Below are positions 26,341 to 45,846 of a DNA stretch of 64,000 nt, one piece after another (position 1 is the stretch's first letter; each line of letters begins with the position of its first letter). The notes below the pieces were generated by a model, which was given only the letters and a program-made list of their open reading frames with translations, was not told the origin of the DNA and did not search any database. Origin of the DNA: Oceanicaulis sp. HLUCCA04 (GTDB taxonomy: Bacteria > Pseudomonadota > Alphaproteobacteria > Caulobacterales > Maricaulaceae); assembly GCA_001314625.1 (NCBI GenBank), contig LJSH01000003.1, positions 1 through 64,000 on the forward strand, given 5' to 3'. A program made the translations under genes and the position numbers.

Positions 26341-26437
26341 TCAAGAGCGAAAAAGCGCTTCACACGCGGCGAACGCGCTCTAACCTCTCCCGACACCAGA
26401 CGGGCAAAAGCCCGCGACATTCAGGGGAGGATATGCC

Positions 26438-27784
26438 TTGGCCATTGCCAGCCCGCCGCCGGCTACACCGGTGACCCAGCCGCTTGCGCCCAGTGCCCGC
26501 CGCTATGCCATTGGCATGTTGCTGGTCATCTATATCTTCAATTTTCTCGACCGGCAGATCGTCAACATCCTCGCCGAGCCGATCAAGCTCGAGCTGGGGC
26601 TGGCCGACTGGCAGCTTGGCATGCTCACCGGCCTTGCCTTCGCGGCATTCTATACCGTGCTGGGTATTCCCATTGCGCGCTATGCGGAAAAGGCCGACCG
26701 GGTGAAAATCATCTCGGTAGCCGTCGCCGTGTGGAGCGTTTTCACCATCGCCTGCGGACTGGCGGCCAATTTCACCCAGCTTTTGCTGGCCCGCATCGGG
26801 GTAGGTGTCGGCGAGGCCGGGTGTTCGCCGCCTGCGCATTCGCTCATCACCGACTACACGCCCAAGGAACAGCGCGCCTCGGCGCTGGCCTTCTACTCGA
26901 TGGGCATACCGCTAGGGTCTCTGGCCGGCATGGCTCTGGGCGGGCTGATTGCCGATGCGTTCGGCTGGCGGGCAGCTTTCTTCGTTGCCGGTGCGCCGGG
27001 GATCATTCTGGCGGTCATGGCGTTTCTGACGCTGCCGGAGCCGCGCCGCGGGCTGGAAAAGAAGGTCTTGCCTGTCAAGGGGCCGAGCTTCGCTGACGCG
27101 ATTGTAGAGCTTCGCTCCAAGAAGTCCTTCTGGTGGATCTCCATCGGTGCGGCCCTGAGCGCGATGGTCGGCTATGGCCATATCGCGTTTTACGGCTCGT
27201 TCTATCTGCGCAATCACGGCGAGGGCCTGGCGGCCATGGCAGTCAGCGTCAACGAGATGATAGGGGTCAGCTTCGGACCTATCGGCTTTGTGGGCACCGC
27301 GCTGGGGCTCATTATCGGGATATGCGGCGCGCTCGGCACCTTCATTGGCGGCGTGCTCGCCGACCGGGCCGCGCGCAAGAATGTGGCCGGGTATGCAACT
27401 GTGCCGGCCATTGCCGGTCTGGTTACCGTCATTCCGTTCATCGCCGCCATGCTTGTGGACAATGTGGCGCTGTCCTTCCTGATCCTCGCCTTGCCGGTCT
27501 TTGCCGGGGCGATCTGGTATGGACCCGTCTTCGCCAGTGCGCAGAGCCTCGTCCAGCCCCGCACACGCGCGACGGCGGCAGCTGTGTTGCTGTTTGTGAT
27601 CAATCTGGTGGGCCTTGGGCTTGGCCCGCTTCTGGTGGGCATATTTAGCGACGTGTTCGCCCAGAGCATGGGAGCTGCTGAAGGCATTCGCTGGTCGATG
27701 GTGCTGTTTGGCGGGGTAGGCGGTATCGCGTCGATCGCCTTCTTCCTGGCCGCGCGCACGCTGAAAGACGAGGTGGTCGGCTAG
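26438..27784 (+). CDS. MFS transporter, spinster-like
   Basis: A 448-residue transporter with 12 predicted helices. FNFLDRQIVNILAEPIKLEL is typical of the spinster-like group, and GVGVGEAGCSPPAHSLITDY matches the conserved helix-4/5 region. The start appears to be TTG at 26438, eight bases after GGGGAGG; the nearby ATG at 26434 is in another frame. Its substrate is unknown; in many alphaproteobacteria these transporters lie next to catabolic genes. It is convergent with the histidine kinase, and the two stop codons share the palindrome CTAG at 27781-27784. Confidence 0.85.
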   Translation: MAIASPPPATPVTQPLAPSARRYAIGMLLVIYIFNFLDRQIVNILAEPIKLELGLADWQLGMLTGLAFAAFYTVLGIPIARYAEKADRVKIISVAVAVWSVFTIACGLAANFTQLLLARIGVGVGEAGCSPPAHSLITDYTPKEQRASALAFYSMGIPLGSLAGMALGGLIADAFGWRAAFFVAGAPGIILAVMAFLTLPEPRRGLEKKVLPVKGPSFADAIVELRSKKSFWWISIGAALSAMVGYGHIAFYGSFYLRNHGEGLAAMAVSVNEMIGVSFGPIGFVGTALGLIIGICGALGTFIGGVLADRAARKNVAGYATVPAIAGLVTVIPFIAAMLVDNVALSFLILALPVFAGAIWYGPVFASAQSLVQPRTRATAAAVLLFVINLVGLGLGPLLVGIFSDVFAQSMGAAEGIRWSMVLFGGVGGIASIAFFLAARTLKDEVVG

Positions 27785-29187
27785 GCCGTCTCACTGCCAG
27801 CCGGGCGGACGGTGAAGCGTGCGCCCGGCCGGGCGGCTCCCGGTCTGGCATCCTCAACATCCACGGTCAGGCCGTGACGGCGGACGACGGCATGGACAAA
27901 GGACAGTCCCAGGCCATGTCCACGCGGGCCGCCATGGCTGATCCGGGCAAAGCGCATGAACACGCGCTCGCGCCAGTCCGCTGGCACGCCGGGGCCGTTA
28001 TCCTCCACGATCAGCACCGGCCCTTCGCGCACGGTCACCTTCACCTCGCCGCCGTCAGGCAGGAACTTGACGGCGTTGTCGAGGAGGTTGGCGACAAGGC
28101 GTCCAAGCTGAGCCGGACTGCCGCGCATCATGACGGGCCGGGGGGCGTCGAGCTTCACGCTCGCGCCCTTTTCGGCGGCGACATCGTTGTAAAGCGGGGT
28201 GATGGAACGGGCGAGCGCGGCGAGGTCCAGCTCCTCCAGTCCGCGTGTGTCGCCGATCTCGGCGCTGATGGCGGAAATGTCCATCAGAGAATTGATCAGC
28301 TCGCCGAGCTCTGACAACTGCTCGCGTGCCTGCTCAATGCGGTCCGGATCGCGGTCCGCCTCGGCCAGCGTGCGGTCGATCCGGATCAGCGGGGTGCGCA
28401 GCTCGTGCGCGGTCAGGTCTGACACATCGCGCTGCGCGCTGATCAGCCTTTCGATCCGGTCCAGCATGGCGTTGATATTGCGTGAGAGCAGGCCGAACTC
28501 GTCACTGCCGTCCTCGCCGGGCGCGCGCTGGTCGATCGCGCCGTCGCGCACCGCCTGGCAGGTGCGGTTCAGGCGCTCGACACGCGCCATGATCCATCCG
28601 GCGGCAACCAGGCCGGCGGCGACGCCCAGTGTCAGCGTAATGAAAAACCCGGCCAGAAATATCGTGCGCAAGCGGGCCAGAGCCTCGGCCTGGCTGGTGG
28701 TGGAGCGGCCGACAAACAGGCGGTAGTCCTGCGGCATCAGGAAGGCCCGCCCCAGAACCGGCAGGCGTGCGCCATCGACCGTGAAGGCGCCATCTATCCA
28801 GGCAGCATCCAGCGAAAAGGCGTCGGGCCATTTTGTCAGATTGCCCGCCAGCGGTTCGCCGTCCGGGTCTGCAAGCAGATAGACAGGCCCTTCGCCCTCC
28901 AAAGGGCGCAAGGCCAATCGGTCGTCGACCGAACGGCGCAGCCCCGCCTCGCCTTCAATCGTGTAGATATCCACCAGCCCCGCCGCATCGGTATTGACCA
29001 GCTGACGCAAGGTCTGGTCGGAGACATAGGCGAAGGCGAAATACGCGATCAGGAAAATCACCGTGGAGGCCAGATTCACCAGAACCGCAATCAGGGCGGC
29101 GACGCGTACGAAGGTTGATCTGAAAATGCGGAGCGGTAAGCCTTTCAGGGCCGCGCGGGTTGGGGTTAGACTGGACCCGGACATCAT
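27781..29187 (-). CDS. membrane sensor histidine kinase (orphan)
   Basis: A 468-residue kinase. Two membrane helices (about residues 28-53 and 177-200) enclose a periplasmic domain of roughly 125 residues. A HAMP domain follows, then the H box SDLTAHELRTPL (His261), an N box near RLVANLLDNAVKF, and the G boxes VEDNGPGVP and GHGLGLSFVHAVV. It should autophosphorylate and pass the phosphate to an OmpR-type regulator. None is adjacent, and the only one in the window is at 44888, at the far end of the caspase-like cluster. The start codon lies 17 bp from the divergent lipoprotein start, with Shine-Dalgarno sequences for both genes inside that gap. Confidence 0.9.
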   Translation of the reverse strand: MMSGSSLTPTRAALKGLPLRIFRSTFVRVAALIAVLVNLASTVIFLIAYFAFAYVSDQTLRQLVNTDAAGLVDIYTIEGEAGLRRSVDDRLALRPLEGEGPVYLLADPDGEPLAGNLTKWPDAFSLDAAWIDGAFTVDGARLPVLGRAFLMPQDYRLFVGRSTTSQAEALARLRTIFLAGFFITLTLGVAAGLVAAGWIMARVERLNRTCQAVRDGAIDQRAPGEDGSDEFGLLSRNINAMLDRIERLISAQRDVSDLTAHELRTPLIRIDRTLAEADRDPDRIEQAREQLSELGELINSLMDISAISAEIGDTRGLEELDLAALARSITPLYNDVAAEKGASVKLDAPRPVMMRGSPAQLGRLVANLLDNAVKFLPDGGEVKVTVREGPVLIVEDNGPGVPADWRERVFMRFARISHGGPRGHGLGLSFVHAVVRRHGLTVDVEDARPGAARPGARFTVRPAGSETA

Positions 29188-29204
29188 GAATGAGGGACTC
29201 CCCG

Positions 29205-29792
29205 ATGCGCATACGTCTTAGCGCCCTCGCGGCGGCTTCTGTCCTGTCGGCAGGCCTCGCGGCCTGTGCGGGGCACCAGACCACGCCGCCACTGGCCAGT
29301 GTTGCCGAGCCTGATGGCCAGATATTTGCCGCGCTCGATATCGGCTTTCGCGCAGAGGCGGCCAGCGACGGCGCGGCGCTGCGCGCGGCTGCATCGCTGC
29401 TGGATTCCAGCGGCGCTGTGCCGGCCGAAGGTGAACCGGACCTGATGGAGCGCTGGCGTGATATGGCTGCCGGGCTGGGCGAGGAACTGCCGCCTGTGCG
29501 TGGGCGCATTGCCGGTCCGGCCTATCGCAATGGCATTGTCGGCGCCGGTGCGGCAGCGGTGCTGCGTGACAGCTTCCACTCCGGCCGTGCGGCGCGGGTC
29601 TCCTTGCAGGCGCGCGGGGCTGGCACCTTGCGTCTCTCTATCCGGCGAAATGATGGAGAGGCCGTATGCGAGGCGCTGGCCAGCACCGTGCCGGTGAGCT
29701 GCCAGTGGGTGCCGGTCTGGTCGGAGCCTTTCACCATCGAGATCACCAATCTCACCGGCGGACAAATTGCCTATTATCTCATCACCAACTGA
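29205..29792 (+). CDS. small lipoprotein with PPC-like C-terminal beta domain
   Basis: A 195-residue predicted lipoprotein: signal peptide RIRLSALAAASVLSAGLAAC with lipobox LAAC (Cys at about residue 20). The C-terminal 75 residues (RAARVSLQARGAGTLRLSI through FTIEITNLTGGQIAYYLITN) resemble the end of the 42450-43133 protein (VQIRNLGNIGVSHNLVTN), including two Cys in the same order. Both look like pre-peptidase C-terminal (PPC) type beta domains. Function is unknown. The start at 29205 has GAGGGA seven bases upstream. It is convergent with the CHAT protein ending at 29802 and belongs spatially to the caspase-like cluster. Confidence 0.65.
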   Translation: MRIRLSALAAASVLSAGLAACAGHQTTPPLASVAEPDGQIFAALDIGFRAEAASDGAALRAAASLLDSSGAVPAEGEPDLMERWRDMAAGLGEELPPVRGRIAGPAYRNGIVGAGAAAVLRDSFHSGRAARVSLQARGAGTLRLSIRRNDGEAVCEALASTVPVSCQWVPVWSEPFTIEITNLTGGQIAYYLITN

Positions 29793-29801
29793 CATTGCTT
29801 T

Positions 29802-32726
29802 TTACTGGCCGATCAGGGCAAACGGCCCCCAGACACCCGGATGGGCACTGCCCGGTACACTTTCATCCTCCATCAGGGCCAGCACGGCATGGCGGAAGGC
29901 GTTGGCCCGTGTCTCGCCGGCCAGCGCCCGTCTTGCAGTTTCTGCCGTGATGGACGCAGCGGCATCGTCGCGAACCGCCCAGTGGGAAACCAGAAGGCTG
30001 CGTGCGCCGGCGTAGAGGAAAGCCTGCGCCAGCCGGTCTGGCGCTCTGGCTGTGCCGTCTGACGCAAACGTGTTGCACGCCGACAGCACGACCCAGTCGG
30101 CATCAAGCTGGAGCGCGGCAATCTCCGACGCGGTCAGCAGCCCATCGTCAAGCGCGCCGGGATTATCGGGCGGAGTGAAAGCCAGCGCGGGTTCAAACAC
30201 CGTTTCCAGCTCGCCGGAAAGAAGCCCGTGCGTGGCAAAAACCAGCATGCTGGCACGGGCAAGATCGGCCGACTTTACCGCCGTTTCAGTCGCCCACAGG
30301 CCGAGACGGATATCGGCGCGTTGCGGCCCGAATACCCCGGCCAGCTCCTGCAGCTCCACGCGGGCACCGGGCAGCGGTGCCAGCGAGGACAAGGCGCGCA
30401 CGCCGTTAGCGCCGGCATCGCGCGAGACCGCTGCAATGGTGATTGCGTCTGCCTGCGTATCGCCGTCAAAGACCGGCGCCCCAAACCCGATCAGGTAGGG
30501 CTCACGCGGCGTGCGTTCGGCCTGCCCGCCCGTCAGATCGGCGAAGGATGCAAGCGTGGAGACGGCGTGGCTGCGGATCAGCCAGGGCGCATCGCGAAAG
30601 GCCACGTCGCCGGACATGGGCGCGGTGTACTCTGTCGTCAGCAAGACTGGAAACGGGATTGACCGGTACGGGCCGTCGGCCAGAACGAGAAGCTGGTCAT
30701 GGGTTTCGAGCCCGTCGGCGAGACGCGGCGTGAACACACCCGCGTAAAGCGCGTGCGCTGCCGCTGCGGGAAAAGACTGTATCGCGCTTGCCGCCAGTCC
30801 GGCCTCAAGTGACGACCTCAAGGTGGTGACATGGCCTTGCGCGTCTGCACGGCTGACCGCCAACCGGTCCATGATCACGCGGTCATGGGTGATACGCAGG
30901 CTCACGCCGCCACCTTCGGTGAATGCAAAGGCGATCACGCTCTGATCGGGTGTCAGCGCGGCCTGTAAGGTATCCGTACCCACAGTGCTGGCGGTGTTTG
31001 CTGGATCTTCAGCGCCCGGGATTGCCTCCAGGGCCGATCTTGCCTGCGAATAGCTATCGCGAGCCTCGGCCAGCGCTTGCGGGTCAGGCTCGGTGCCGGC
31101 TGACCGGACGCGGACATAATTGTCCTCTGCCCGTCGCAGCGCGCGCCAGCCATCCTGCCTTGCGCGGATGAGGCTGGCAGCGTCCAGACCTTGCGCGCGG
31201 GCGCGCAGCGCATTGGCCTCTGCGGCCAGTGCCAGCCCGGTTGCATGGACATGCTGCATGTAGCGAAGAGCAGCATTGGTATCGTTGGCTGCAAAGGCGA
31301 TGTCGAGTGCGCGGCGGAAGGCGCGGCCACGGCGCATGGCCATGTCGCGCGCATTGTCGACATCAACCAGGCGCAGATCGCTTGCCAGTGCTGCTATGGC
31401 GGCGTCGACTTCCTGCGGGACAAAGCGCATGGCATCGCCAGCGATCGCCGAAATCCAGGCCTCGTCGATAGCCAGTTCATGACGCCGTTCATGGCCTTCG
31501 GGCAGATAGGAGGCAGCCAGAACCCGCGCCTCACCCAGATAGTGAAAGCCCTGCTGCGTGTTGCCGGAAAGCGCCTCAACAGCGGCCAGCTCGGTCAGCA
31601 CGCGCAGCCGGTCCGGGCCGGTAGTGCCAGCCGCGTCCATGACATTGAGAGCCTCCAGCCACTCGGCGCGCGCCGTTTCGAAATCGCCGGTGGCCAGCGC
31701 CGCGTCTGCAGCATTCATCTGCATGCGGGCGGCCTCTACCGACGCGTCGCCTGCCGCATTGCGGTAGATATCGTGTGCCGCCAGGAAAAGCGGCCGCGCT
31801 TCTCTGGCCCGTCCCTGTCCGTACAGCGCGGATCCCAGATTGTTCAGCGTATCGGCAACCTGGGGATGGGCATCGCCCAGACTTTCGCGCCGGGCGCTCA
31901 GCGTCGTGCGCAACAGAGGTTCTGCGGCCTCATACCGTCCCCATGCATTGAGGGCGCCGGCATAGCTGGAGCGGGCAAAGCCGATGAAAGGGTGGCCGGG
32001 CGGCAGATTGGCCTCAAGCTGCTCAGCGGCGTTTCGGGCGAGGTCGGCGGCATCCTCGTAGCGGTAGGCGCGTATCAGGATGGCCGCGAGGCTGACCTGC
32101 GTCATCGCGATATGCGGGTGGCCCTCCTCCAGCACGGCAGAGCGTATATTCAGCGACCGCTCGACCAGCTCGATAGCGCTGTCGATATCGCCGCGTGTGT
32201 TGAGAATTACGCCCAGCTCGAAATAGGAGCGGGCAATCTGGACATGGTTCTCCGGGTAAAGCTCCCGGCGGATCTCCAGCACCCGCCTGTGGGCTGCCTC
32301 CGCTTCGTCCAGCCGGCCGAGCGCACCCAGGATGCTTGCTACATTGCCGAGCGATTGTTCCAGGGCTTCGAGATGGTCCGGCCCGGCCTGCTCGAATATG
32401 TCCGAAGCCTCCTTAAAGCTGGCGAGAGCATCTTCGCGTCCGCCCGCGTAAAATATTGCCGAACCCAGCTGATTGAGAAGGGCTGCGCGGTCCGTCTCCG
32501 CAACACCGTCCAGCTCCCGCGAGGCGTCATAGGCGGCCTGCCACGCGGCTTGCGCGTCGGCGGGTGCCTGCTCCATGTCGACCGCTTGCGCGGCTGCGAT
32601 GAGGGCGCGGACCTCAGTATCGGCGATTGACGGCGCAAGCGGTGTCTCAGTGTCCTGTGCCTGGCTGCAAGGCGCTTGCAAAAGTGCCAGCGCAAGCACC
32701 AGCGCTGCGATAATGATGCGATACAA
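29802..32726 (-). CDS. exported TPR-CHAT (caspase-like) protein, large
   Basis: A 974-residue protein: signal peptide (YRIIIAALVLALALLQAPCS), about ten tetratricopeptide repeats over residues 40-480 (for example LNNLGSALYGQGRAREARPL), a helical linker, and a C-terminal CHAT domain. The caspase-type dyad is His833 in FATHGLL and Cys884 in VVLSACNT. CHAT proteases include separase-like and TPR-CHAT enzymes that cleave specific partner proteins. Export would make this a periplasmic or surface protease, and Cys9-18 of the signal region could also serve as a lipobox. The start is TTG at 32726 behind GGAGGG. It is divergent from the alpha/beta hydrolase at 32931, with a shared 17-bp motif between them. 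Confidence 0.88.
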   Translation of the reverse strand: MYRIIIAALVLALALLQAPCSQAQDTETPLAPSIADTEVRALIAAAQAVDMEQAPADAQAAWQAAYDASRELDGVAETDRAALLNQLGSAIFYAGGREDALASFKEASDIFEQAGPDHLEALEQSLGNVASILGALGRLDEAEAAHRRVLEIRRELYPENHVQIARSYFELGVILNTRGDIDSAIELVERSLNIRSAVLEEGHPHIAMTQVSLAAILIRAYRYEDAADLARNAAEQLEANLPPGHPFIGFARSSYAGALNAWGRYEAAEPLLRTTLSARRESLGDAHPQVADTLNNLGSALYGQGRAREARPLFLAAHDIYRNAAGDASVEAARMQMNAADAALATGDFETARAEWLEALNVMDAAGTTGPDRLRVLTELAAVEALSGNTQQGFHYLGEARVLAASYLPEGHERRHELAIDEAWISAIAGDAMRFVPQEVDAAIAALASDLRLVDVDNARDMAMRRGRAFRRALDIAFAANDTNAALRYMQHVHATGLALAAEANALRARAQGLDAASLIRARQDGWRALRRAEDNYVRVRSAGTEPDPQALAEARDSYSQARSALEAIPGAEDPANTASTVGTDTLQAALTPDQSVIAFAFTEGGGVSLRITHDRVIMDRLAVSRADAQGHVTTLRSSLEAGLAASAIQSFPAAAAHALYAGVFTPRLADGLETHDQLLVLADGPYRSIPFPVLLTTEYTAPMSGDVAFRDAPWLIRSHAVSTLASFADLTGGQAERTPREPYLIGFGAPVFDGDTQADAITIAAVSRDAGANGVRALSSLAPLPGARVELQELAGVFGPQRADIRLGLWATETAVKSADLARASMLVFATHGLLSGELETVFEPALAFTPPDNPGALDDGLLTASEIAALQLDADWVVLSACNTFASDGTARAPDRLAQAFLYAGARSLLVSHWAVRDDAAASITAETARRALAGETRANAFRHAVLALMEDESVPGSAHPGVWGPFALIGQ

Positions 32727-32814
32727 AACGGTGACCCTCCCCCGTGGCTATCCGCGTGTTGACGCATGATTGCCCGGCGCAGGCGCGCTGGCAAACCTTG
32801 TGCGTTACAACCGG

Positions 32815-32831
32815 CTGACAATAGCAGACAG
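32815..32831. promoter_or_regulatory. putative response-regulator site, CTGACAATAGCAGACAG (site A)
   Basis: Two GACA half-sites ten bases apart. The element matches 14 of 17 bases of site B at 42323-42339. It lies between the divergent CHAT gene (start 32726) and the hydrolase gene (start 32931). Confidence 0.5.
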
Positions 32832-32930
32832 GCTTGGCGCAAAAGCGTTTATGGGGCTTGTACGCGCTCGACAGGAGCGCCCTGCTGCCGCAAAGTCCGA
32901 TGCCGCTTCGGGCGTGGACGGGAGTGACCC

Positions 32931-34664
32931 ATGCAGATGAGAACGCTTGGCTTTTGTCTGACTGCCGTGGCCGCTCTGGCCTGCCATGGCCATGCTCGAG
33001 CCCAGAGCTGCGAGCTTGATCCCGATCGCGTCGAGGCGATTGATCTTGATGCGCTGGAGTTGAATCTGTCCGAACAGATCGCCTTCTATTTCGATCTGGC
33101 TGACTGGCGGAACAGCTGCGGTGATCCTGATGCCGCGCGCGCAGCCTATGCACAGGCGCGAAGCCTCATCGAGACGGCGCAGGAGTTTGAAGGCGCGTGG
33201 GCGCACGGGCTTATTGGCGAAGCGCGCATGGAGGCCGGGCAAGGCCGGTTTGAGCGCGCGCGCGAGATACTGGACGAGGCGGACGCGGTGCTGATTGAGG
33301 CCGGGGCATCGCAGGCACGCGATTTTCTGTTCCTGATGGAAACGGCGGCCGAGGTGGAAGCAGCCGCTGCGGCAGCAGGTGAGATAAACAGCCTGCCGCA
33401 GGTCGAGGCCGAGCTGGCCGTACTGCAGACCCGGGCGCAGCGCGAGGAGGACGAGGCCCTGACGCGCGATCCTGATGCCGGCGCCAATGCTGACCATGTT
33501 ATTGTCCCGGTTTTCTACGGCACGAACCGCGTGCGCACGGGATCTGCGGATCCGAATGCCTTTTACGGGCCGGTCTCCGCCCCGCTGGACCTTGGCGTGG
33601 TGACCGTCTCCGTGCCGCGCAATCGTGAAGTCGGATCCATCCCGCGCCGCGACGAGTATCCCGGTGATCTGGACCAGTATCGCGGCGACTATTTCATTCT
33701 CGAGCGCGTTGAACCTTTCGCAGACGACTACGCCTTCACCGATGCGCTGGGCGAGGCGATGGATGCGTCGCAGCGCCGTGAGCTGCTGGTCTTCATCCAC
33801 GGGTTCAATTCCGATTTCAGGGGCGCGGCCGAACGCGCCGCGCAGCTGGCCGTCGATCTGGAGATTGACGGCGTGCCTGCGCTGTACTCCTGGCCGTCGC
33901 GCGGTTCGCTGCTGGGCTATTTCGCCGACGGGCGTGAGGTGAATGACGCCAATGTCAGCGATCTGGTCGACTATCTCTACCTGTTGATGAACGGGGCCAA
34001 TGCCGACCGCATCCATATCGTGGCGCATTCCATGGGTAATCGCTTCCTCGCCCGTGCCCTGGAGGAGCTGGCACAAACCTATCCTGACCCGCCCGCGCCG
34101 CTGTTTGATCAGGTGGTCTGGGCGTCGCCCGATGTCGATGCCTCGGAGTTCATGGAGCTGATGCCGCAGGTAGATCATCTGGCCGCCGGGATGACACTTT
34201 ATGCCTCGGGCGCTGACCGTGCGCTGCTTCTGTCGCGCCGGATCAATGGCGGCAACCCGCGCGCCGGCGATTCCAGTCCGCCCTATCCGGTAGTGGTCGA
34301 GGGCCTCAGCACGGTCGACACGACGGCGGCCGGTGGCAGGGGGCTGGGCCATTCAGACTATGCTGGCCCGGCCATGGACGATTTTCGCGCCCTGATCTGG
34401 CTGTCGCTCAGCCCGGAGGAGCGCTGCATCCTGCAGACCAATACCGGCCAGTTCGGCCAGTTCTATGCGGTGGATCCCGGCACCGGCGGCGCGTGTGAGC
34501 CCGATGTCTTCAAGTACTCGATCACGGCTCTGCGGCGCAGCGGCGAAGACGGGGAGCCGCTGGAACTGTTGCAAAGTGCGGTTGCCATGCCAGGCGCAGC
34601 GATTGCCGGCCGGCTGGACGATGTCCGCCAGCTGATCACCCGGCTGGCGGCGGTCGGCGGGTAG
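32931..34664 (+). CDS. exported alpha/beta hydrolase (DUF900-like) with N-terminal TPR-like region
   Basis: A 577-residue protein. It has a signal peptide (RTLGFCLTAVAALACHGHARA), then a helical TPR-like segment over residues 60-130 (AARAAYAQARSLIETAQ, ERAREILDEADAVLIEAG). A DUF900-type alpha/beta hydrolase follows, beginning VPVFYGTNRVRTG. The oxyanion and strand region LLVFIHGFNSDF and the nucleophile elbow IVAHSMGNRF (Ser367) are clear; ALYSWPSRGSLLGY is typical of the family. Lipase, esterase or peptidase activity cannot be distinguished. It is in the middle of the caspase-like cluster and ends seven bases from the convergent second CHAT gene. The ATG at 32931 has GGGAG upstream; ATG 32937 is an alternative. 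Confidence 0.85.
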   Translation: MQMRTLGFCLTAVAALACHGHARAQSCELDPDRVEAIDLDALELNLSEQIAFYFDLADWRNSCGDPDAARAAYAQARSLIETAQEFEGAWAHGLIGEARMEAGQGRFERAREILDEADAVLIEAGASQARDFLFLMETAAEVEAAAAAAGEINSLPQVEAELAVLQTRAQREEDEALTRDPDAGANADHVIVPVFYGTNRVRTGSADPNAFYGPVSAPLDLGVVTVSVPRNREVGSIPRRDEYPGDLDQYRGDYFILERVEPFADDYAFTDALGEAMDASQRRELLVFIHGFNSDFRGAAERAAQLAVDLEIDGVPALYSWPSRGSLLGYFADGREVNDANVSDLVDYLYLLMNGANADRIHIVAHSMGNRFLARALEELAQTYPDPPAPLFDQVVWASPDVDASEFMELMPQVDHLAAGMTLYASGADRALLLSRRINGGNPRAGDSSPPYPVVVEGLSTVDTTAAGGRGLGHSDYAGPAMDDFRALIWLSLSPEERCILQTNTGQFGQFYAVDPGTGGACEPDVFKYSITALRRSGEDGEPLELLQSAVAMPGAAIAGRLDDVRQLITRLAAVGG

Positions 34665-34671
34665 CCGCACC

Positions 34672-36438: not shown

Positions 36439-36442
36439 CGGC

Positions 36443-38446: not shown

Positions 38447-38450
38447 CAGC

Positions 38451-39911
38451 CTAACCTTCCGCGTCCCGGGCCGCCGCCCAAAGGGCGTCAACATGAGTGG
38501 TGAGGGCGTTCAGAGTCAGCTCGTCTGACAGATCATTCTGGCCATCGGAGATTCGTGAAAAGATAGGTGCTGCGGCGGTCCGAGTGACGGCGAGCGCGCG
38601 CGCCGGCGCCGTTTCACCTTGTAGCAGGAACCGGGCAAGCCGGGTGCGGGCGCGTACGGCGTGGGCATGCTCAGGGCTCAGCGCCGCGTCATAGGCTGTG
38701 ATGGCAGTTTCAAGATCGCGCTGCACCGCGTTGTCCGCGCCAAGAGTGATACTGGCGATGGCGGCCCCCTCCAGTGAGAGCGCGGTCTGAGGATGGGCAG
38801 CGCCGAGCAAGTCCTCAAAGAGACGGTAGTTTTCCCGGTGCAACGTTTGCGCCTCGCTCATCCGCCCCTGGTCAGCCACATAGCTCGCCAGATTGAAGCG
38901 GACCTGCAAGGCATCATGGGAGCCCGCGCCGCTCGTTCGAGACAAGATAGTCAGCGCTTGCCGGGTGAGAGCTTCGGCCCGGGCAAGGCCGTTCGGACCG
39001 AGCTCAGCCTCGGCGATGGCCATTATGTTGAGCGCGCGAGCGGCCTGCAGATCGGCTTGCCCGCGCCTTTCATAGATGGTCCATGCGCGGCCAGCGAGCA
39101 TCCGCGCCTGATCGAACTCGCCCTGATGAACCCGGCCCATCGCCAGGTCGAGCAGGCTCGCAAGCGCCACCGCGGAATCCGGCCCGGCCTGGAGCGCGGA
39201 TTCTTCGAGATTGCGCAAGTAGAGTTCGATCATGTCATCATGGCGTCGCGTTTCCCGCAGGACATCCGCCAGCACCCATCTTGCGCGATAGGTTCGGTTA
39301 AAATCCGGCGGCTGAAGCGCCGAAGCGTCGTGCACCAGTGAACGCGCCAGCGTTTCAGCTTCCTCCACCCTCGCCTGACGGCTTAGGATCATGGCTGTCT
39401 CGAGACGGTAGTCCAACGCCTCGCGTGAGCGAGCGCCAAAGCGCTGCCGGGCGTATTCGTAGAGTAATTCATAAAGCTCGAGCGCGTTGGCATAGTCGCC
39501 AAGACGGGCTTTCAAACGGGCCTCAATCTCCGCGGCTTCTATGAATAGAGGCAATAATTGCGGGTCACGGGCCTGGCGGACAATCCGGTCGGTGATGGCG
39601 GATGCGTCGGCATAACGATGACCTCCTTCCAGCGACAAGGCGTAATCCAGCTGCACCCGCAGCGTTGCCGGATGGCCTTGCCCAAGCGTCTCGGCAATCA
39701 ACTGGGAGGAGCGCTCAAGCGGCGCCAGCGCATCAGCGAAGCGCCCCGCAGCGTGATGCGCTATACCTTCCGCGTGCAGCCGGACTGCCTCATCTGCGGC
39801 TGGCTGCACACCCTGGCTGGCAGGGCGGCTTTCTCCGGGGGCTTTCTGGGCTTCCGCCATCCCAGGCGCCGTCAGCAGCAGGGTGGCCGTCAAAGCAAGG
39901 GTAGAGCGCAT
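38451..39911 (-). CDS. exported tetratricopeptide-repeat protein (TPR protein 2)
   Basis: A 486-residue protein with signal peptide RSTLALTATLLLTAPGMAEA and mature start QKAPGES. Degenerate TPR helices run through most of the chain (HHAAGRFADALAPLERSSQL, QGRMSEAQTLHRENYRLFED). No catalytic residues were recognised. It is a shorter paralogue of TPR protein 1. The intergenic sequence before its start (GGAAGGTTAGGCTGATGCG) is identical to that before TPR protein 1. It lies second in the operon, four bases after the metacaspase stop, and ends with the same Glu-Gly pair. Confidence 0.85.
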   Translation of the reverse strand: MRSTLALTATLLLTAPGMAEAQKAPGESRPASQGVQPAADEAVRLHAEGIAHHAAGRFADALAPLERSSQLIAETLGQGHPATLRVQLDYALSLEGGHRYADASAITDRIVRQARDPQLLPLFIEAAEIEARLKARLGDYANALELYELLYEYARQRFGARSREALDYRLETAMILSRQARVEEAETLARSLVHDASALQPPDFNRTYRARWVLADVLRETRRHDDMIELYLRNLEESALQAGPDSAVALASLLDLAMGRVHQGEFDQARMLAGRAWTIYERRGQADLQAARALNIMAIAEAELGPNGLARAEALTRQALTILSRTSGAGSHDALQVRFNLASYVADQGRMSEAQTLHRENYRLFEDLLGAAHPQTALSLEGAAIASITLGADNAVQRDLETAITAYDAALSPEHAHAVRARTRLARFLLQGETAPARALAVTRTAAAPIFSRISDGQNDLSDELTLNALTTHVDALWAAARDAEG

Positions 39912-39915
39912 CAGC

Positions 39916-42246
39916 CTAACCTTCCTCGCCGCCGGGCGGGATCAGCCGCCACTGGAACAAGACGGTGCCGGCCTGCGCATCCAGCGCCGGGCGTGACCGG
40001 GCGCTGCGTGTTGCCGACCCGCCGAACGCTGCCTGACTCATCAGCTGGCCAAGGGGCGACCGCTGGGCATCGCTGACTGTGCCATCGCCCGACCGCGACA
40101 GGCTGGTCTGGGTCAGGAAGCCGAAATCCATCGGGATGGCAGCGCCCGGTTCGCGTTCCACCGCCAGCAGGACCAGACGCTCCAGACCGGCACTGGCCGG
40201 ATAGCCGGTTGTCCAGTCGAATGTGCGCAGGCCCGCCCATACAATGCGCGGCTGCTCGCCGGGCTCTATGCGGGTGGTCGCGCTGGTTCCCAGAAACGGA
40301 AGCCGGTGAATGCCCGCCTGGCTGTCGATATAGAGCGGCGTCACATCAATGGGCGTGTCACCGGTATTGGTCAGGCGGACATAGACGATGTCGCAATGGC
40401 TGAGCTGCAGCGCGTTAAGCTCGCTGGTGCCAAGCTCTGAAAGCGAGACCGCGTCATCCGGGATGGCAGATGCGTCGGGCAGGGAGCAGGCCCAGTCATC
40501 GGGTGCACGGGCATTATCGGGCAGGCGCGGTGCTTCAGCGCGCCAGATGAAAGTCTCGTGCTCGAGGTTTTGCAGGCCATTGGCGCCCTGCAGCGCGCTG
40601 GCGGCGCTCAATATATTGCGCACGCGGGCGAGCTTTTGCAGTTCTGCCTCGATCTGGCTCATCAGCGCGTCGGTGTCGGCCGTGTCGTCCAGCGTGATAC
40701 GGGCGGATCGTTCACGGCCCGTGGCAATGATGTCCGGCTCGGCGCGCAGAAGCCAGATCGCGCCGTCCTGCACCCGGATGCGCACATCGGCCGGCTCACC
40801 GGGCTGACGAAACTCGATCGGTGCGATCAGGGTTTCAGGATTGGCCGCGGCCAGCCGTTCGAGTGCTTCGATAGCGATGGCTTCGCGGCTGTCAGGCTCG
40901 GCCGCCGTGTCCTCGATAGCGACGGACAGCGCAAGCCGCACGCCGCGGTCCACCAGACGGGCGGTCATGTACGCCGTGCGGCCGGGCAGGGCGCGGGCGG
41001 CCTCATTGCCGTCAAACGCTGTCAGAACGGCGCGGGTCGCGGTCTGTCCTACCTCCGTGGCTTCGACATAGTAGGGACCGGGAAAAGAGGGGTGGGGGCC
41101 TTGCGTATCGGGATCGCGCACGATGATCTCGAACACTGCGCCCTCGCCCACGCCTTCCAGCGACCCGGCCTCGATTTCTGTGGTGTCGCGGGCCAGGAAC
41201 CGGGCGTGCCATTGCGGAGAGCGGACTGTACCGCCCTCACCCAGCAATGCCCGGTCCAGATCGCCTTCAAACAGCGGGGCGGGCGCGCGGCTGCCCCAGT
41301 CATTATATCCGGAGAGCACCCGGTAGGCGAGATCGCGATAGCTGGCCACGCCGCCGGCCAGAAGCCCGTTGGCGATGTGAAATGTCATCACGCCGAAATT
41401 GTCACGGCCTTCGGCCGGGCCGACCTTGGGCATCAGGCCTTCGAGCGCCAGCTGTCCTGAGTGGGCTGCGTAGAATGCCACAAAGCCGCCTTCACCCAGT
41501 GCAAGCGCGCTTTCAGGACGTGCTGAAGACGTGGCAGAGCGCGTGCTCTGCGCTCGCTGCTCGGCGGCGAGGCGTGCCTCTGCGGGTATACCCAGCAGGT
41601 CTTCGGTCACAGCGCGGGTGCGAAACTCACCGCCCGGCCCCGCGCTGCGGTTGGCTCCCCCTGAATGGCATGTGTCCACGACCAGCCAGACGAAGACATT
41701 GCGCTCGCGCAAAGCCTCCAGAAAGTCGCCTATCTCGTCATCCAGAAGTGCGTTGTGGACGCCTGCCTGCCGGTCGCCTTCAGCCCCTTCCCAGTGACCG
41801 ATATCCAGCGGCAGGAAGATCTCGTCAAAGCCGTTGGCCTCCGGCACGGCCGCGCCCTCCGGCTGCGGCTGGCGCGAGCCATGGCCGGAGAAATACACCA
41901 GAATCTCGTCTCCGGGCTGTGCCCGTTCCAGCATGTCGGCAAAGGCGGCGATGATGCCGCCATGGGTTGGCTCGCCATGAGCGGTAAAGTCGATGCCCGT
42001 CTGATCGAGGCCATCTGCCAGGACCAGCATGTTGGCATCAGGCACATCATAGGCGCGCAAGGCCCGGATCATCAGGGCAACATCATTGCGGGGTCCCAGA
42101 AGCTCGACCCCCGGGCCGATCCGCTCCTCATCATAGCCTGATGCGCCGATCAGGAGGGCGTGGCGCCGGGGTGCATCGTCACGGGCAAGGGCAGGGCCGG
42201 CGAGCGTTGCCAGTGCCGCAAAAATCATGAGCAGACGATGGCGCAT
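39916..42246 (-). CDS. exported metacaspase-like peptidase C14 protein
   Basis: A 776-residue protein: signal peptide RHRLLMIFAALATLAGPALA, then a caspase-fold domain at residues 28-300. The dyad is His122 in VYFSGHGSR and Cys193 in VVDTCHSGG, with RHALLIGASGYDEE as the first strand. About 470 residues of uncharacterised C-terminal region follow, with strand-rich segments and a few Cys. Metacaspases cut after Arg or Lys, but the S1 pocket residue was not identified here. It is the first gene of the operon 42246-34672. The start at 42246 has GGAGG upstream; an open frame extends back to 42429 without homology. A 17-bp putative regulator site lies 77-93 bp upstream. Confidence 0.88.
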   Translation of the reverse strand: MRHRLLMIFAALATLAGPALARDDAPRRHALLIGASGYDEERIGPGVELLGPRNDVALMIRALRAYDVPDANMLVLADGLDQTGIDFTAHGEPTHGGIIAAFADMLERAQPGDEILVYFSGHGSRQPQPEGAAVPEANGFDEIFLPLDIGHWEGAEGDRQAGVHNALLDDEIGDFLEALRERNVFVWLVVDTCHSGGANRSAGPGGEFRTRAVTEDLLGIPAEARLAAEQRAQSTRSATSSARPESALALGEGGFVAFYAAHSGQLALEGLMPKVGPAEGRDNFGVMTFHIANGLLAGGVASYRDLAYRVLSGYNDWGSRAPAPLFEGDLDRALLGEGGTVRSPQWHARFLARDTTEIEAGSLEGVGEGAVFEIIVRDPDTQGPHPSFPGPYYVEATEVGQTATRAVLTAFDGNEAARALPGRTAYMTARLVDRGVRLALSVAIEDTAAEPDSREAIAIEALERLAAANPETLIAPIEFRQPGEPADVRIRVQDGAIWLLRAEPDIIATGRERSARITLDDTADTDALMSQIEAELQKLARVRNILSAASALQGANGLQNLEHETFIWRAEAPRLPDNARAPDDWACSLPDASAIPDDAVSLSELGTSELNALQLSHCDIVYVRLTNTGDTPIDVTPLYIDSQAGIHRLPFLGTSATTRIEPGEQPRIVWAGLRTFDWTTGYPASAGLERLVLLAVEREPGAAIPMDFGFLTQTSLSRSGDGTVSDAQRSPLGQLMSQAAFGGSATRSARSRPALDAQAGTVLFQWRLIPPGGEEG

Positions 42247-42322
42247 GGCCAGCCCTCCAGAGTACTTGGATCCGTGACGCGAACTTACCGCGAGCTGCCG
42301 CGGCGCTGCGAGTAGATGTTTT

Positions 42323-42339
42323 CTGACAATGCCTGACAG
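42323..42339. promoter_or_regulatory. putative response-regulator site, CTGACAATGCCTGACAG (site B)
   Basis: Contains TGACA twice, start to start ten bases, as in many OmpR-family direct-repeat sites. It lies upstream of the metacaspase operon. It matches 15 of 17 bases of the reverse complement of site C (43319-43335) and 14 of 17 bases of site A. Confidence 0.5.
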
Positions 42340-42449
42340 CCCGGTCACCCAGCCGCCTGAACGCGCGCGGACGGCGCAGGGTCTTGCAACCCTGACGCCG
42401 CCGGCATTGCCGGTTTCCGGCGGGAGCATCCGGAAAAGCCGGATACGCT

Positions 42450-43133
42450 CTAGTTCGTGACCAGGTTGTGGCTTACGCCGATATTGCCCAGATTGCGGAT
42501 CTGGACCTGAAAATTGCCCGTCCAGCGCGGGGTGAAGTAGCAGGACATGCTGTCAGAATAGTCGATATGACGGCAGATCAGATTGCCGTTCTGGTCATAG
42601 ACATACATGTCTAGATCGGTGCGGCCGGGGCCGTTGGCCCAGATGGCAGCGCGTTCACCGCCCCGGAAAGTCACGTTGTAGGTGGTCGTGCTGCGCGCGC
42701 CGACCCAGCCCGATGCCCGGCCAGGACCGCCCACGCGGCCACGGCTCGCATCGGCCTCGACTTCCTCAATCAGGCCGGCCAGCGCCTCGTCGCCGCGTGC
42801 CAGAACACGCGCTTCATCGAGCATGTCGGCTGCCGAAGCGAGTTCGATCTCGGCCTCTTCGGCCTCGCCGTCCTGCTCGGCGATCTCGTATTCGCGCTCT
42901 TCAACCTCAACACCCTGGCGAATGCGGGCAGCCACGATCACGGCGAGCGGATCACGCGCATCCACGCCGTAGGCATACAGCTCCTGTGACAGTGCCAGCT
43001 GTTCGACGCCGGTCGTGCCTTCGCCGCGCTGGTCTTCGGCGAAATTGGTGCCCGTTTCATCGGTTTCCTGAGCCATTACTGGCCCGGCAAGGACGATGGC
43101 AGCGGTTGTTGCAAGCAAAATGGAGAGTTTCAT
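42450..43133 (-). CDS. exported acidic protein with PPC-like C-terminal domain
   Basis: A 227-residue protein: signal peptide KLSILLATTAAIVLAGPVMA, an acidic helical region around residues 80-125 (EEREYEIAEQDGEAEEAEIE), a Gly/Arg linker, and a C-terminal beta domain. That domain runs from TTYNVTFRGGERAAIWANGP through DLDMYVYDQNGNLICRHIDY to VSHNLVTN. The pattern DLDMYVYD.NGNL is typical of pre-peptidase C-terminal domains, which often bind Ca2+ or accompany secreted proteases. Two Cys could form a disulfide. The start has an AGGAG site. It is divergent from the HtrA-like gene. Confidence 0.72.
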   Translation of the reverse strand: MKLSILLATTAAIVLAGPVMAQETDETGTNFAEDQRGEGTTGVEQLALSQELYAYGVDARDPLAVIVAARIRQGVEVEEREYEIAEQDGEAEEAEIELASAADMLDEARVLARGDEALAGLIEEVEADASRGRVGGPGRASGWVGARSTTTYNVTFRGGERAAIWANGPGRTDLDMYVYDQNGNLICRHIDYSDSMSCYFTPRWTGNFQVQIRNLGNIGVSHNLVTN

Positions 43134-43318
43134 GTGATTTACTCCTGTAAAGATACGGTTGCGCATTTGCCAACAGGACGTGGTTATTCGAAAAATCCGG
43201 TGCAGGGCGTTTTCCTGTTGCCTGCATAAGCCCTAGCTGAATGTTTTTTGCTGGAAAAGCGGCAAATCGAGACTGTCCGGCTTTGTCAGAAATGCCGGTG
43301 CGGGCGCAGCCTTGTCAC

Positions 43319-43335
43319 CTGACAGGCCTTGTCAG
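43319..43335. promoter_or_regulatory. putative response-regulator site, CTGACAGGCCTTGTCAG (site C)
   Basis: Reverse complement CTGACAAGGCCTGTCAG differs from site B at two positions. Extra TTGTCA half-sites lie at 43283-43288 and 43312-43317. The element is 59 bp upstream of the HtrA-like start and 186 bp upstream of the divergent PPC-like gene. Confidence 0.5.
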
Positions 43336-43394
43336 TGGCCCGGCCGATGCGTGCCTGGATAAGGTGGTAGCGAGCTACAGGAGCGCCGTTATTC

Positions 43395-44852
43395 ATGCAC
43401 GACAACTCTACACGCACGCTGCTGGCGGGGGCTGTCATCATCGCGCTGGTTGCCGCTGCGCAGCTATATGGCCTGCTGCAGGGGCAAATGGGGCAATCCC
43501 AGCCCGGGCCGATGTCCGCCAGGGCGGAGTCGCCGACAGAAATCGCGCTGCGTTCGGTGGTTACCGTCTACGCAGAACGCGCTGTCAGCCAGCCAGTCAT
43601 GTTGCTGTCTGACGGCGAGGGTGCCGGTGAGGGGCTTGGCGCGCGCAACAGCGCGGAGGAAACCGAAGGTTGGTCCTGGCGGTCCGGATCTGGGTTTGCG
43701 ATCGCCGAGGGCGGATATGTCCTCACCAACCATCACGTGATTTCGGGCGCCCGCAGGATCGAGGCCCGGCTTGCCAATGGCAGCCGTGTGCGGGCGGAAC
43801 TCATTGGAACTGATCCGCTGACTGATCTGGCCCTGTTGCAGATTGATGCGGACCTGCCTGTGCTGGAATGGGGTGATGATGAGGCACTGCGCGTGGGTGA
43901 CCCGGTCGTGGCTATCGGGTCCCCGCTGGATTTTCACCTCTCGGCAAGCTCGGGCGTCATTGGCGGCTTTGGCCGTGCTTATGATGGCGCTGATCCGGTC
44001 GGCTATATCCAGCATGACGCGGCGCTCAATCCGGGCAATTCCGGCGGGCCGCTGATTGATTCGTCGGGCCGCGTTGTTGGCGTTAACACCGCCATTCCGC
44101 AGGAAGCCTTTTTCAATGTCGGCATATCGCTGGCCGTACCTGCCAGCGTTGCGCGTCAGGTGGGTGAAGCCCTGACAGCACATGGACGTATGGAGCGGGG
44201 CTTTCTCGGCGTTTCGGTGCGTGCCCTGCATGGTCCGCTGGCGAGCGCGATGGGGCGCCGGAGCGGGGAAGGTGTGCTGATCGAGGCCGTTGATCCAAAC
44301 TCGCCGGCAGCGCAGGCCGGTGTGCGGCCCGGCCAGACCTTGCTGGCCGTCGATGGGATCGCCCTGTCGACACCGCGTGATCTGGCGCGTGCGCTGCTTG
44401 TGACCCTTCCCGGCGCCGAGCTGGCGCTCAGCCTGCATGACGGCGAGGCGCGCTTTCGCGTCAGCGCCGTGCTGGATCGACGGCCGGATGCAGACCAGCC
44501 TGCCATTGCGCGAGATCTGGGCTTCGAGTCGGATGCCGGGCACGGTTATGGACTGAGCTTTGCCGGAACGGAATCGGGCGGAGTGGCCGTTGCCTCGGTG
44601 GCCCGTGGCAGCCCGGCCGCACAAGCAGGGCTCGCCGAAGGCGATATCGTGCTGGCCATTGGCGCTTCGGAGCTGTCAGACCCGCGCGAGGCGGAGGTCC
44701 GCCTGAGGCTGGCGCGCCATGAAGTGGCGTTGCGGGTTTTGCGTAGCGGGGACAACGTGCCGCGCTATATTGCGCTGGTTCTTGACCATGGGGCGGCCGC
44801 GCGCGCACCTGACCATGCGGCCTTTGCCGATGCGTCCGGTGGCCCGTTCTGA
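43395..44852 (+). CDS. HtrA/Deg-like serine protease with two PDZ domains, membrane-anchored
   Basis: A 485-residue protein. It has an N-terminal anchor (LLAGAVIIALVAAAQLYGLL), then a trypsin-like domain with triad His114 (VLTNHHVI), Asp144 (DPLTDLALL) and Ser216 (NPGNSGGPLI). Two PDZ domains follow at about residues 260-355 and 375-465 (SPAAQAGVRPGQTLLAVDG, SPAAQAGLAEGDIVLAIG). Deg proteases degrade or activate periplasmic proteins and often sense unfolded outer-membrane proteins through PDZ domains. Here it sits at one end of the caspase-like cluster and is followed by an OmpR-type regulator only 35 bp away, so the two genes are probably co-transcribed. It could process the CHAT or metacaspase zymogens, which is inference. 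Confidence 0.92.
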   Translation: MHDNSTRTLLAGAVIIALVAAAQLYGLLQGQMGQSQPGPMSARAESPTEIALRSVVTVYAERAVSQPVMLLSDGEGAGEGLGARNSAEETEGWSWRSGSGFAIAEGGYVLTNHHVISGARRIEARLANGSRVRAELIGTDPLTDLALLQIDADLPVLEWGDDEALRVGDPVVAIGSPLDFHLSASSGVIGGFGRAYDGADPVGYIQHDAALNPGNSGGPLIDSSGRVVGVNTAIPQEAFFNVGISLAVPASVARQVGEALTAHGRMERGFLGVSVRALHGPLASAMGRRSGEGVLIEAVDPNSPAAQAGVRPGQTLLAVDGIALSTPRDLARALLVTLPGAELALSLHDGEARFRVSAVLDRRPDADQPAIARDLGFESDAGHGYGLSFAGTESGGVAVASVARGSPAAQAGLAEGDIVLAIGASELSDPREAEVRLRLARHEVALRVLRSGDNVPRYIALVLDHGAAARAPDHAAFADASGGPF

Positions 44853-44887
44853 CGGCGTGAATACACCTAAATCGGGGAAATGTGACA

Positions 44888-45583
44888 ATGCGCATACTCA
44901 TGGTCGAGGACGAGGACGTATGGGCGGACAAGGCCAGAGAGGCCGTGGCCACCGAGCCGGACTGGACGCTGGAGCGGGTGTCGTCCGGCGCCGCCGCGCT
45001 GGCCATCGGAGCGGGCAGCGCGTTCGATGTGCTGATCGTTGACAGGGTCATCGAGACAGACGGGACCGATGGCCTGGCCCTGCTGGCGCGCCTGCGCGAG
45101 ATGGGCGTTGCGGCACCTGCCCTGGTGCTCTCCAGTCTCGGACAGGCCCACCAGCGTGTCGAAGGGCTCGATGCCGGCGCAGATGACTATCTTTCCAAGC
45201 CTTTCGATGCCGCCGAACTGCGCGCGCGGCTGAAAGCGCTCGCCCGGCGGGCTGGCTTTGTGGCCAACCCGGAAGTGATCGTGCTGGGCGGGCTGGAAGT
45301 GCGGGTCAAGGCGCGCACGGCGCACTGGAACGGTGCGCATATCCCGCTTTCACCCCAGGAGTTCAATATTCTCAAGCTGCTGGCCGAGAACGCCGGAGAA
45401 CCGGTCAGCCGCGATGCGCTGTGGACCGGTGTCTGGACCGATTTCCCCAACCTGCCGCCACAGATCAATGTGATTGACGTGGCCGTTGCACGCCTGCGCC
45501 GTTCCATACGTGCGGTTGTCGGCGATGATCTGATCCAGACGCAGCGCCTCAAGGGCTACATACTTCCGGCTGCCCCGGACTAG
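44888..45583 (+). CDS. OmpR-family response regulator
   Basis: A 231-residue regulator. The receiver domain has the acidic pocket VEDED (Glu8-Asp9-Glu-Asp11 region), phospho-acceptor Asp52 in LIVDRVI, Ser82/83 and Lys104 in YLSKPF. The C-terminal winged helix has IPLSPQEFNILKLLAENAGE and IDVAVARLRRSI, ending LIQTQRLKGYIL. The ATG at 44888 is eight bases after GGGGAAA; GTG 44882 is possible. No kinase is adjacent. The orphan kinase at 27781-29187 on the far side of the caspase-like cluster is the candidate partner, and the CTGACA-type sites A-C are candidate targets. Confidence 0.92.
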   Translation: MRILMVEDEDVWADKAREAVATEPDWTLERVSSGAAALAIGAGSAFDVLIVDRVIETDGTDGLALLARLREMGVAAPALVLSSLGQAHQRVEGLDAGADDYLSKPFDAAELRARLKALARRAGFVANPEVIVLGGLEVRVKARTAHWNGAHIPLSPQEFNILKLLAENAGEPVSRDALWTGVWTDFPNLPPQINVIDVAVARLRRSIRAVVGDDLIQTQRLKGYILPAAPD

Positions 45584-45682: not shown

Positions 45683-45846
45683 ATCAGAGTCTGTCTTGCT
45701 GGACAGGACGGTCCTGCTCGGCATGCTGATTTATTACAGTTTAGCAAGGTAGCGCTTTCAACCGGGGGGCAAGCCAGCAGAGCGCTTAATTGAGGTCAGT
45801 TGACCCACTATCGGCTTGCCGACAGCAAGAAAAAAGGGGCAATAAA

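Follow-up and report, generated by a model that had tools for sequence, protein, structure and literature searches.

A caspase-fold protease block that looks exported and carries a probable two-component system of its own in Glycocaulis and related bacteria

In bacteria, caspase-fold enzymes are usually treated as enzymes of cell death or defence that work in the cytosol. In the genome of Oceanicaulis sp. HLUCCA04 (assembly GCA_001314625.1), an eleven-gene block with an MFS transporter on one side and a TonB-dependent receptor on the other encodes three of them, all with N-termini of the export type, and is closed at one end by a sensor histidine kinase and at the other by an OmpR-type response regulator. 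What ties these genes together, and what would such proteases do outside the cytoplasm? We analysed the block within the first 64,000 nucleotides of contig LJSH01000003.1 (hereafter the window, which is the start of contig C8 in this 2.76-Mb genome, G000). Gene order and promoter sequences make it very probable that the block genes are one unit under the block's own kinase-regulator system. The fuller reading, in which the block is a periplasmic caspase-fold protease system, at once a regulon and a transferable unit, run by that two-component system (TCS) with control based on its PPC-like proteins, stands in our view at even chances.

A conserved gene block with export-type N-termini

The block reads, in sequence, kinase, PPC2, TPR-CHAT, DUF900 hydrolase, CHAT, TPR1, TPR2, C14, PPC1, HtrA and response regulator (domain calls are from Pfam scans and positions are those of the whole window). 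The initial annotation had placed two CHAT proteins, one metacaspase-like (C14) protein, two TPR proteins, a TPR-alpha/beta hydrolase, an HtrA-like protease with two PDZ domains and two PPC-like small proteins at 27781-45583, and Pfam together with genome comparison bore out this set. For the hydrolase (32931-34664, + strand) the TPR label is that of the initial annotation, DUF900 being the only Pfam match; the two PPC-like proteins are present, but neither reached the Pfam PPC cut-off (PPC1 E 0.05, PPC2 no match).

Conservation of the block was followed in 137 genomes of the family, 398 of the order and a class sample of 385. With the CHAT protein (34672-36501, - strand) as query, matches were found in 20 of the 137 family genomes, including five of the six Glycocaulis. 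Placing the window proteins on the stretches around the CHAT matches recovered the order regulator-HtrA-PPC1-C14-(TPR)-CHAT-hydrolase-TPR-CHAT-PPC2-kinase in these five (G000, G044, G078, G156 and G158) and in G216, a genome of another genus whose 38-kb stretch contains none of the window's flank genes. Separate TPR genes vary in number among the blocks, with none in G044, and parts of the block are carried by G173 and G170. In G157, the sixth Glycocaulis genome, the alpha-2-macroglobulin gene is followed by the TonB receptor and then, after only two unrelated genes, by the MFS transporter, which is the arrangement of an empty site; this 20-kb stretch showed no block gene. A lack of conserved co-occurrence in related genomes had been named beforehand as an outcome that would refute the idea of such a system; co-occurrence and gene order are conserved in these six genomes, and the cluster is therefore not a chance grouping.

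One further genome, G217, carries a single end of the block (kinase, PPC2, TPR-CHAT, hydrolase and a shortened CHAT) at 66-90% identity to the window, while its second CHAT is 58% identical and its genus mate G216 reaches only 45-67%. These identities suggest transfer, and the partial block is likely to have been transferred and then to have decayed. The shortened CHAT copy (in G217:C1:2689000-2727999, L063/L064) lacks about 277 N-terminal residues and is 90% identical to the window's over the remainder. Taken together, the comparisons support a transferable unit whose genes travel together. Other queries were less informative: the C14 protein matched in 11 of 150 order genomes, closely only in three Glycocaulis and weakly in the other eight, and in a named genome collection it had two close relatives, both Glycocaulis; TPR1 mostly retrieved unrelated TPR proteins.

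The three caspase-fold proteins carry His-Cys dyads at the residues first proposed. In the TPR-CHAT protein (29802-32726, - strand) the dyad H833/C884 is invariant in 12 of 12 aligned sequences. That of the CHAT protein is H462/C514 in the open reading frame (ORF) of 609 residues, equal to H441/C493 when counted from Met22. In a wider alignment the CHAT dyad is kept in 48 of 50 rows; a strict text pattern recovers both residues in 53 of 72 CHAT rows (duplicates included), and we use the aligned count because most of the pattern failures proved in the alignment to be variants. The C14 protein (39916-42246, - strand; 776 residues) has H122/C193 when counted from its likely true start: position 42246 is most likely the start rather than 42429, since the upstream codons of the longer frame carry stops in relatives. 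Patterns found its His in 11 of 12 and its Cys in 10 of 12 sequences; the G044 dyad is present in the alignment, and G414 has DACYAAG. The protein scores 46.8 bits against Pfam Peptidase C14 p20 (cut-off 21.4), and phmmer puts metacaspase-4 closest to it among solved sequences (E 2e-10). Its long C-terminal part has no Pfam match, and its structure model, built from three sequences with a mean predicted local distance difference test score (pLDDT) of 41.8, was not used for fold comparison. The two block CHAT genes are the only CHAT-family matches in the whole genome at E<=0.001. In two loci of f2 genomes (L133:6544-9947 and L134:8753-12097), where PPC and CHAT genes lie by a kinase and a regulator, the CHAT active-site Cys stands in GCYT or GCST, not in ACNT. 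The HtrA protein (43395-44852, + strand) has Trypsin_2 and two PDZ domains over the Pfam cut-off, triad motifs read by eye and an N-terminal anchor, which places it among HtrA/DegP proteases; against the NCBIfam Do family it scores 297.5 bits, below the 416.2 cut-off.

Most block members had been read at the outset as carrying signal peptides, anchors or a lipobox. A home-made rule (basic start, hydrophobic core, and a cleavage-like or lipobox motif at the N-terminus) agreed, calling export-type N-termini in all nine non-TCS proteins, including TPR1 (36443-38494, - strand) and TPR2 (38451-39911, - strand), against 1 of 62 internal control segments; it made no call for the kinase or the regulator. 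PPC2 is a predicted lipoprotein with the lipobox LAAC. These N-termini support the view that the proteases, the PPC-like proteins, the TPR proteins and the hydrolase are exported. The accompanying statement that known CHAT and metacaspase systems are cytosolic needs softening, as a 2012 survey counts 46 prokaryotic metacaspases with a single N-terminal helix, possibly a signal peptide (PMC3501461).

The flanks were considered for further members. The alpha-2-macroglobulin gene (49346-54310) was tried as the inhibitor of the system and rejected as a block member, for it is kept in G157, G211 and G034, which have no block (absence there rests on the lack of a CHAT-protein or PPC-model match among those listed, the kinase and regulator not having been searched genome-wide). 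This protein, which has a bait region, is encoded on the regulator side of the block in Glycocaulis; in G173 its gene stands about 1 kb away from CHAT. Between it and the regulator lies the TonB-dependent receptor (45790-49242), found there in G000, G158 and G157 and unmatched there in G078, G044 and G156. On the other side, a penicillin-amidase family protein, an arylesterase/lactonase-like protein and the MFS transporter (22849-27784, + strand) adjoin the block and are matched there in all five block-bearing Glycocaulis.

A promoter repeat and a probable kinase-regulator pair

The direct repeat CTGACA-N6-GACAG, with 11-bp spacing, was found by aligning the intergenic stretches of the divergent PPC1/HtrA (43273-43289, - strand) and TPR-CHAT/hydrolase (32815-32831, + strand) regions. 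OmpR-family regulators use direct repeats with this kind of spacing. A third site, about 75 bp before C14 (42323-42339, + strand), played no part in the discovery of the pattern. With at most one mismatch allowed, the window holds seven matches where 0.72 would be expected; two of them are the strands of one palindrome (CTGACAGGCCTTGTCAG, 43319-43335, no strand, one mismatch, upstream of HtrA) and two lie in coding sequence. The whole genome holds eight exact copies, three of them in the block, and a reversed-pattern control has none. With the five other copies as background, the Poisson chance of three in the block is about 6e-6, a figure that overstates the case because two of the block sites suggested the pattern.

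Exact block sites number three each in G000, G044 and G078, two in G156, one each in G158 and G173 and none in G216, which has weaker forms. A further exact copy lies about 50 bp before an unlinked gene for a secreted-looking TPR protein, and this site is present in all three of the six genus genomes that have the gene (G000, G044 and G156), the proteins being 62-68% identical. That gene (L168:1330-3864, on G000:C3), with the repeat in its promoter, is divergent from one that we take to be glutamate-cysteine ligase-like (no search names it). Among the five exact copies of G000 outside the block, the TPR-gene copy (with the gene start chosen by hand) and one at C1:15702 lie between ORFs, and the other three are inside crudely called ORFs. 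Every genus genome carries exact copies outside the block, including two in G157, which has no block. One such copy, CTGACAAGCTTCGACAG (L181:2969-2985, L182:3267-3283), stands 47 bp before an apparent ammonium transporter gene (a name given by no search) in G044 and G156, and occurs also in G078; it may or may not belong to this regulator. CTGACAACACATGACAG recurs in four genomes with no clear promoter position. A weight matrix of the block sites gave no convincing promoter hits in G128, G186, G153, L110, L122, L133, L134 and L146-L148, and we therefore claim the site only for Glycocaulis and, more weakly, for G216 and G173. Within that range, the distribution supports a single repeat as the mark of the block promoters.

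The kinase (27781-29187, - strand) has two transmembrane segments flanking a periplasmic domain of about 120 residues, a HAMP and an HATPase domain by Pfam, and a HisKA-like region below the Pfam cut-off with HELRTP at residue 261; the regulator (44882-45583, + strand) is of the OmpR type by Pfam. Both had been described as orphans, a label that comparison does not sustain, as a kinase and an OmpR-type regulator are adjacent in PPC-like loci of 12 other genomes (G128, G186, G153, G173, G442, G438, G103, G439, G364, G414, G430 and G611; in G173 with HtrA between the pair). In G128, G186 and G153, relatives of the window kinase and regulator are adjacent in a single locus with PPC2 and TPR-CHAT, and G307 has an adjacent kinase and regulator with a weak PPC match. 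Against a model of the kinase, the scores are 606-641 bits in G128, G186 and G153 (members of the model), 365-385 in G442, G438 and G103, 229-256 in G439, G364 and G414, and 152-156 in G430, G611 and G307, while unlinked kinases reach at most 119. The pairs of G430 and G611 score little above unlinked kinases and regulators and are therefore regarded only as of the same type. In a 23-sequence database, and among the matches listed, the window kinase has a periplasmic segment in common with G128, G438, G442, G439, G186, G173, G364 and G153 (E 5e-33 to 4e-5) and, more weakly, with G103 (E 0.002); three unlinked kinases taken from these regions gave no match to it at E<1. The kinase and regulator at the two block ends are most likely a cognate pair.

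PPC-like proteins and the wider core

PPC2 is the + strand ORF from 29190, with its likely start at 29205 (29205-29792); a 203-residue ORF on the opposite strand was set aside as a shadow ORF. PPC1 (42450-43133, - strand) most likely starts at Met12 of a 238-residue ORF. Both have the motif RGR-x2-GP, two cysteines and a C-terminal TN (..ITN in PPC2, ..VTN in PPC1), and PPC-like proteins consist of a helical N-terminal part and a beta domain. We use the PPC label because of shared alignment and fold, not because of Pfam. A PPC1 model built from 13 sequences has a mean pLDDT of 69, with 76-87 in the beta part. Its fold matches are to the beta domain of the Thermococcus subtilase Tk-SP and to collagenase domains, a PPC domain among them, as well as to GOLD and many other beta-sandwich folds. 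RGR-x2-G(P/A) is present in 17 of 17 core rows, with RGR also in G442, G439, G364 and G103 and KGR in G414. Cysteines at -41 and -30 are found in 39 of 49 rows, and a TN or SN end likewise in 39 of 49; these features occur also in unlinked PPC matches and therefore mark a wider family. The [TS]N terminus could be a PDZ-readable tail for HtrA or only the last beta strand, unlinked members sharing it. Unlinked PPC matches in g12 genomes (L152, L153, L154 and L161) adjoin a secreted-looking gene with FTAQGC, and we treat them as part of the wider PPC family and not of this system.

More distant loci were scanned with models built from Maricaulaceae genes, with which distant members could be missed. 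The TPR-CHAT model found 70 of the 398 order genomes at E<=1e-20, some of them through TPRs alone. Among 45 CHAT-bearing stretches scanned (not every match was fetched, and some contigs are short), 16 had a PPC match: nine g12 genomes with no TCS nearby, G128, G186, G153, G439 and G364 with a TCS, and G414 and G430 with PPC, C14, CHAT and a TCS together. Searching with the PPC model turned up 48 matches, spread over 38 of the 398 genomes; of these matches 28 lie within about 3.5 kb of CHAT or C14 (thirteen being model rows and four more Glycocaulis orthologues), four by a kinase and regulator only, 15 by neither (two of these on contigs <8 kb), and one was not examined. The TCS-only genomes G442, G438 and G103 have TPR-CHAT elsewhere. 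Taking PPC matches of >=60 bits, a cut chosen afterwards, 17 of 20 such genomes are among the 70 with TPR-CHAT (Fisher 2e-11, uncorrected for relatedness). The class sample, a cleaner test, had PPC-model matches in 4 of 385 genomes. Two of these, G611 and G813, lie outside the order, and in each a C14 gene is no more than about 3 kb from the PPC match: G611 has a run of kinase, regulator, two PPC genes and C14, followed 2 kb further on by TPR-CHAT, and G813 has C14 and PPC only. The recurring core is a PPC-like protein with a caspase-fold protease, often with a TCS, and is present at least in part in two families beyond the order. Apart from one weak match, the scans of the wider loci gave no HtrA, and the G044 block has no separate TPR gene; an activating role for HtrA and a substrate-choosing role for TPR proteins, both proposed at the outset, therefore look less essential.

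A possible relay and its rivals

How might such a set work? The periplasmic domain of the kinase would sense PPC2, the lipoprotein, and PPC1, the soluble form, or the state of their clients. An envelope signal, together with cutting of the PPC proteins by CHAT and C14, would alter the contact between PPC and kinase; the kinase would phosphorylate the regulator, which would bind CTGACA-N6-GACAG and raise the protease operons. The periplasmic targets of CHAT and C14 would be the PPC proteins or clients that TPR parts hold and select, and HtrA would remove damaged or cleaved proteins. The RGR-x2-GP junction between the helical and beta parts of the PPC proteins is the candidate cut site. This Arg-Gly junction is attractive because C14-family enzymes other than caspases cleave after Arg or Lys (PMC5756287), and because the TPR-CHAT protease of Craspase cleaves a regulatory protein whose gene lies next to its own, in a locus that also contains regulator motifs (PMC10028731). 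A role of the PPC proteins as kinase partners seems to us evenly poised, their role as protease substrates is a tentative proposal of lower standing, and a function of the block in envelope stress is plausible at slightly short of even chances; these gradings, like that of the block as a unit, are our own estimates and come from no calculation. The full relay, in which exported CHAT and/or C14 would cut a periplasmic PPC partner at the Arg-Gly junction and so switch a dedicated kinase with its own family of sensor domain, as an envelope counterpart of Craspase, whose cut in Csx30 releases a sigma factor, is a reading that we regard as rather unlikely in its entirety.

Several observations weigh against the reading of the block as one regulon under PPC-based control. 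The promoter pattern came to light through two of the three block sites, which leaves the C14 and TPR-gene sites as the only ones independent of its discovery; exact block sites number one in G158 and none in G216, and the partial block of G217 has neither regulator nor promoter sites in the stretch examined. The RGR motif is not fully conserved beyond the family; RGV, KGV, RGT or RGL stand in its place elsewhere, and the pattern found no RGR-type site in several rows, including G611 and G813. Among the matches listed, the periplasmic kinase segments of G414, G430 and G611 had no match to the window's at E<1. As for the core, 29 of the 45 CHAT loci have no PPC match and CHAT therefore does not need PPC; the nine CHAT-linked PPC genes of g12 genomes have no adjacent TCS, four PPC-TCS loci have no adjacent protease, and 15 of the 48 PPC matches have neither found beside them.

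The strongest rival is an ordinary Cpx-like regulon for envelope quality control, in which the caspase-fold proteins would be extra housekeeping proteases or scaffolds with no cleavage signalling. Cpx regulons combine an OmpR-type TCS with HtrA, as does the block, and the block is kept by five of six Glycocaulis with dyads intact where read. The near absence of HtrA from the wider loci, where PPC, caspase-fold protease and TCS recur, tells against it, and it leaves unexplained the two PPC genes, one by C14 and one by TPR-CHAT. Neither kinase nor regulator scores as a CpxA/CpxR orthologue (93.8 bits against a cut-off of 486, and 72.3 against 341), and matches of the kinase to the CpxA, BaeS and RstB models are all far below cut-off. 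The block shares an OmpR-type TCS and an HtrA protease with CpxAR-DegP and sigma-E/DegS and differs from them in its caspase-fold proteases and PPC-like partners. We consider this rival unlikely, though worth keeping in view. A surface or developmental system, for instance one processing secreted or stalk/adhesion proteins in prosthecate bacteria, would suit the occurrence in Caulobacterales, the exported-looking TPR and hydrolase proteins and the description of G. abyssi as dimorphic and prosthecate in its genome announcement (PMC11559359). It is very improbable in our estimate: 117 of the 137 family genomes have no match to CHAT, which is therefore not needed for a shared life cycle, and families beyond the order have a version of the system.

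A further rival is a conflict system directed against phages or other bacteria, whose exported proteases would attack an intruder or kill the cell on envelope breach while the TCS keeps them primed. CHAT, C14, TPR and alpha/beta hydrolase proteins are all components of known conflict systems, VMAP ternary systems are described as always having an alpha/beta hydrolase gene beside the caspase domain (PMC7159879), the block comes and goes as a unit, and PADLOC matches its caspase model to C14 (E 2e-13) and its RT-protease models to HtrA (E 1e-13). These matches, with weak ones to TPR and BovA, are nevertheless single-domain, and no complete system was named for nine block proteins; no toxin, pore or nucleotide-sensing family is among the Pfam matches of the block, and the five flanking genes scanned look metabolic, transport-related or envelope-related. 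We judge a conflict role improbable.

Known protease systems resemble the block in part. In the type III-E Craspase, the gene of the TPR-CHAT protein Csx29 neighbours that of a transcription regulator, three regulator motifs lie in the locus, and the protease cuts a regulatory partner (PMC10028731). The block shares the TPR-CHAT architecture and His-Cys dyad, and has a regulator gene and motifs within it; its proteins, in contrast, look exported, and a kinase with an OmpR-type regulator replaces the guide RNA and the sigma factor (CASP-sigma). Neither PADLOC, run on nine block proteins, nor Pfam searches across the block gave a match to a Cas protein such as Cas7-11/gRAMP (no search for CRISPR arrays was made). 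VMAP and MoxR-vWA ternary systems use caspase-fold, alpha/beta hydrolase and trypsin-type peptidase proteins together with NTPases (PMC7159879). The block has the same three protein types, but it looks exported and has a TCS at its ends, and Pfam scans found no MoxR, vWA or VMAP gene in it. Pfam and PADLOC scans likewise gave no gasdermin match, which separates the block from gasdermin-caspase operons. With metacaspases and orthocaspases the block C14 has the His-Cys dyad in common, and differs in its export-type N-terminus and its linkage to PPC genes and a TCS. The 2012 metacaspase survey describes operons with signalling domains, none of the block's make-up being in the text consulted (PMC3501461). 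Literature searches, with most subscription papers and preprints outside their reach, returned no prior description of such a system.

All protein families in the block are already known, and we see their combination as a variant of caspase-fold protease systems. A conserved, exported-looking set that comes with a sensor, a regulator, a DNA site and accessory proteins of its own offers a regulated and testable setting for these enzymes outside the cytoplasm. With PPC1 and PPC2 as candidate substrates and the block promoters as reporters, it could be asked directly which proteins the caspase homologues of bacteria cleave. If the proposed relay were true, it would be a previously undescribed protease-to-two-component relay in the periplasm, and possibly a new kind of system.

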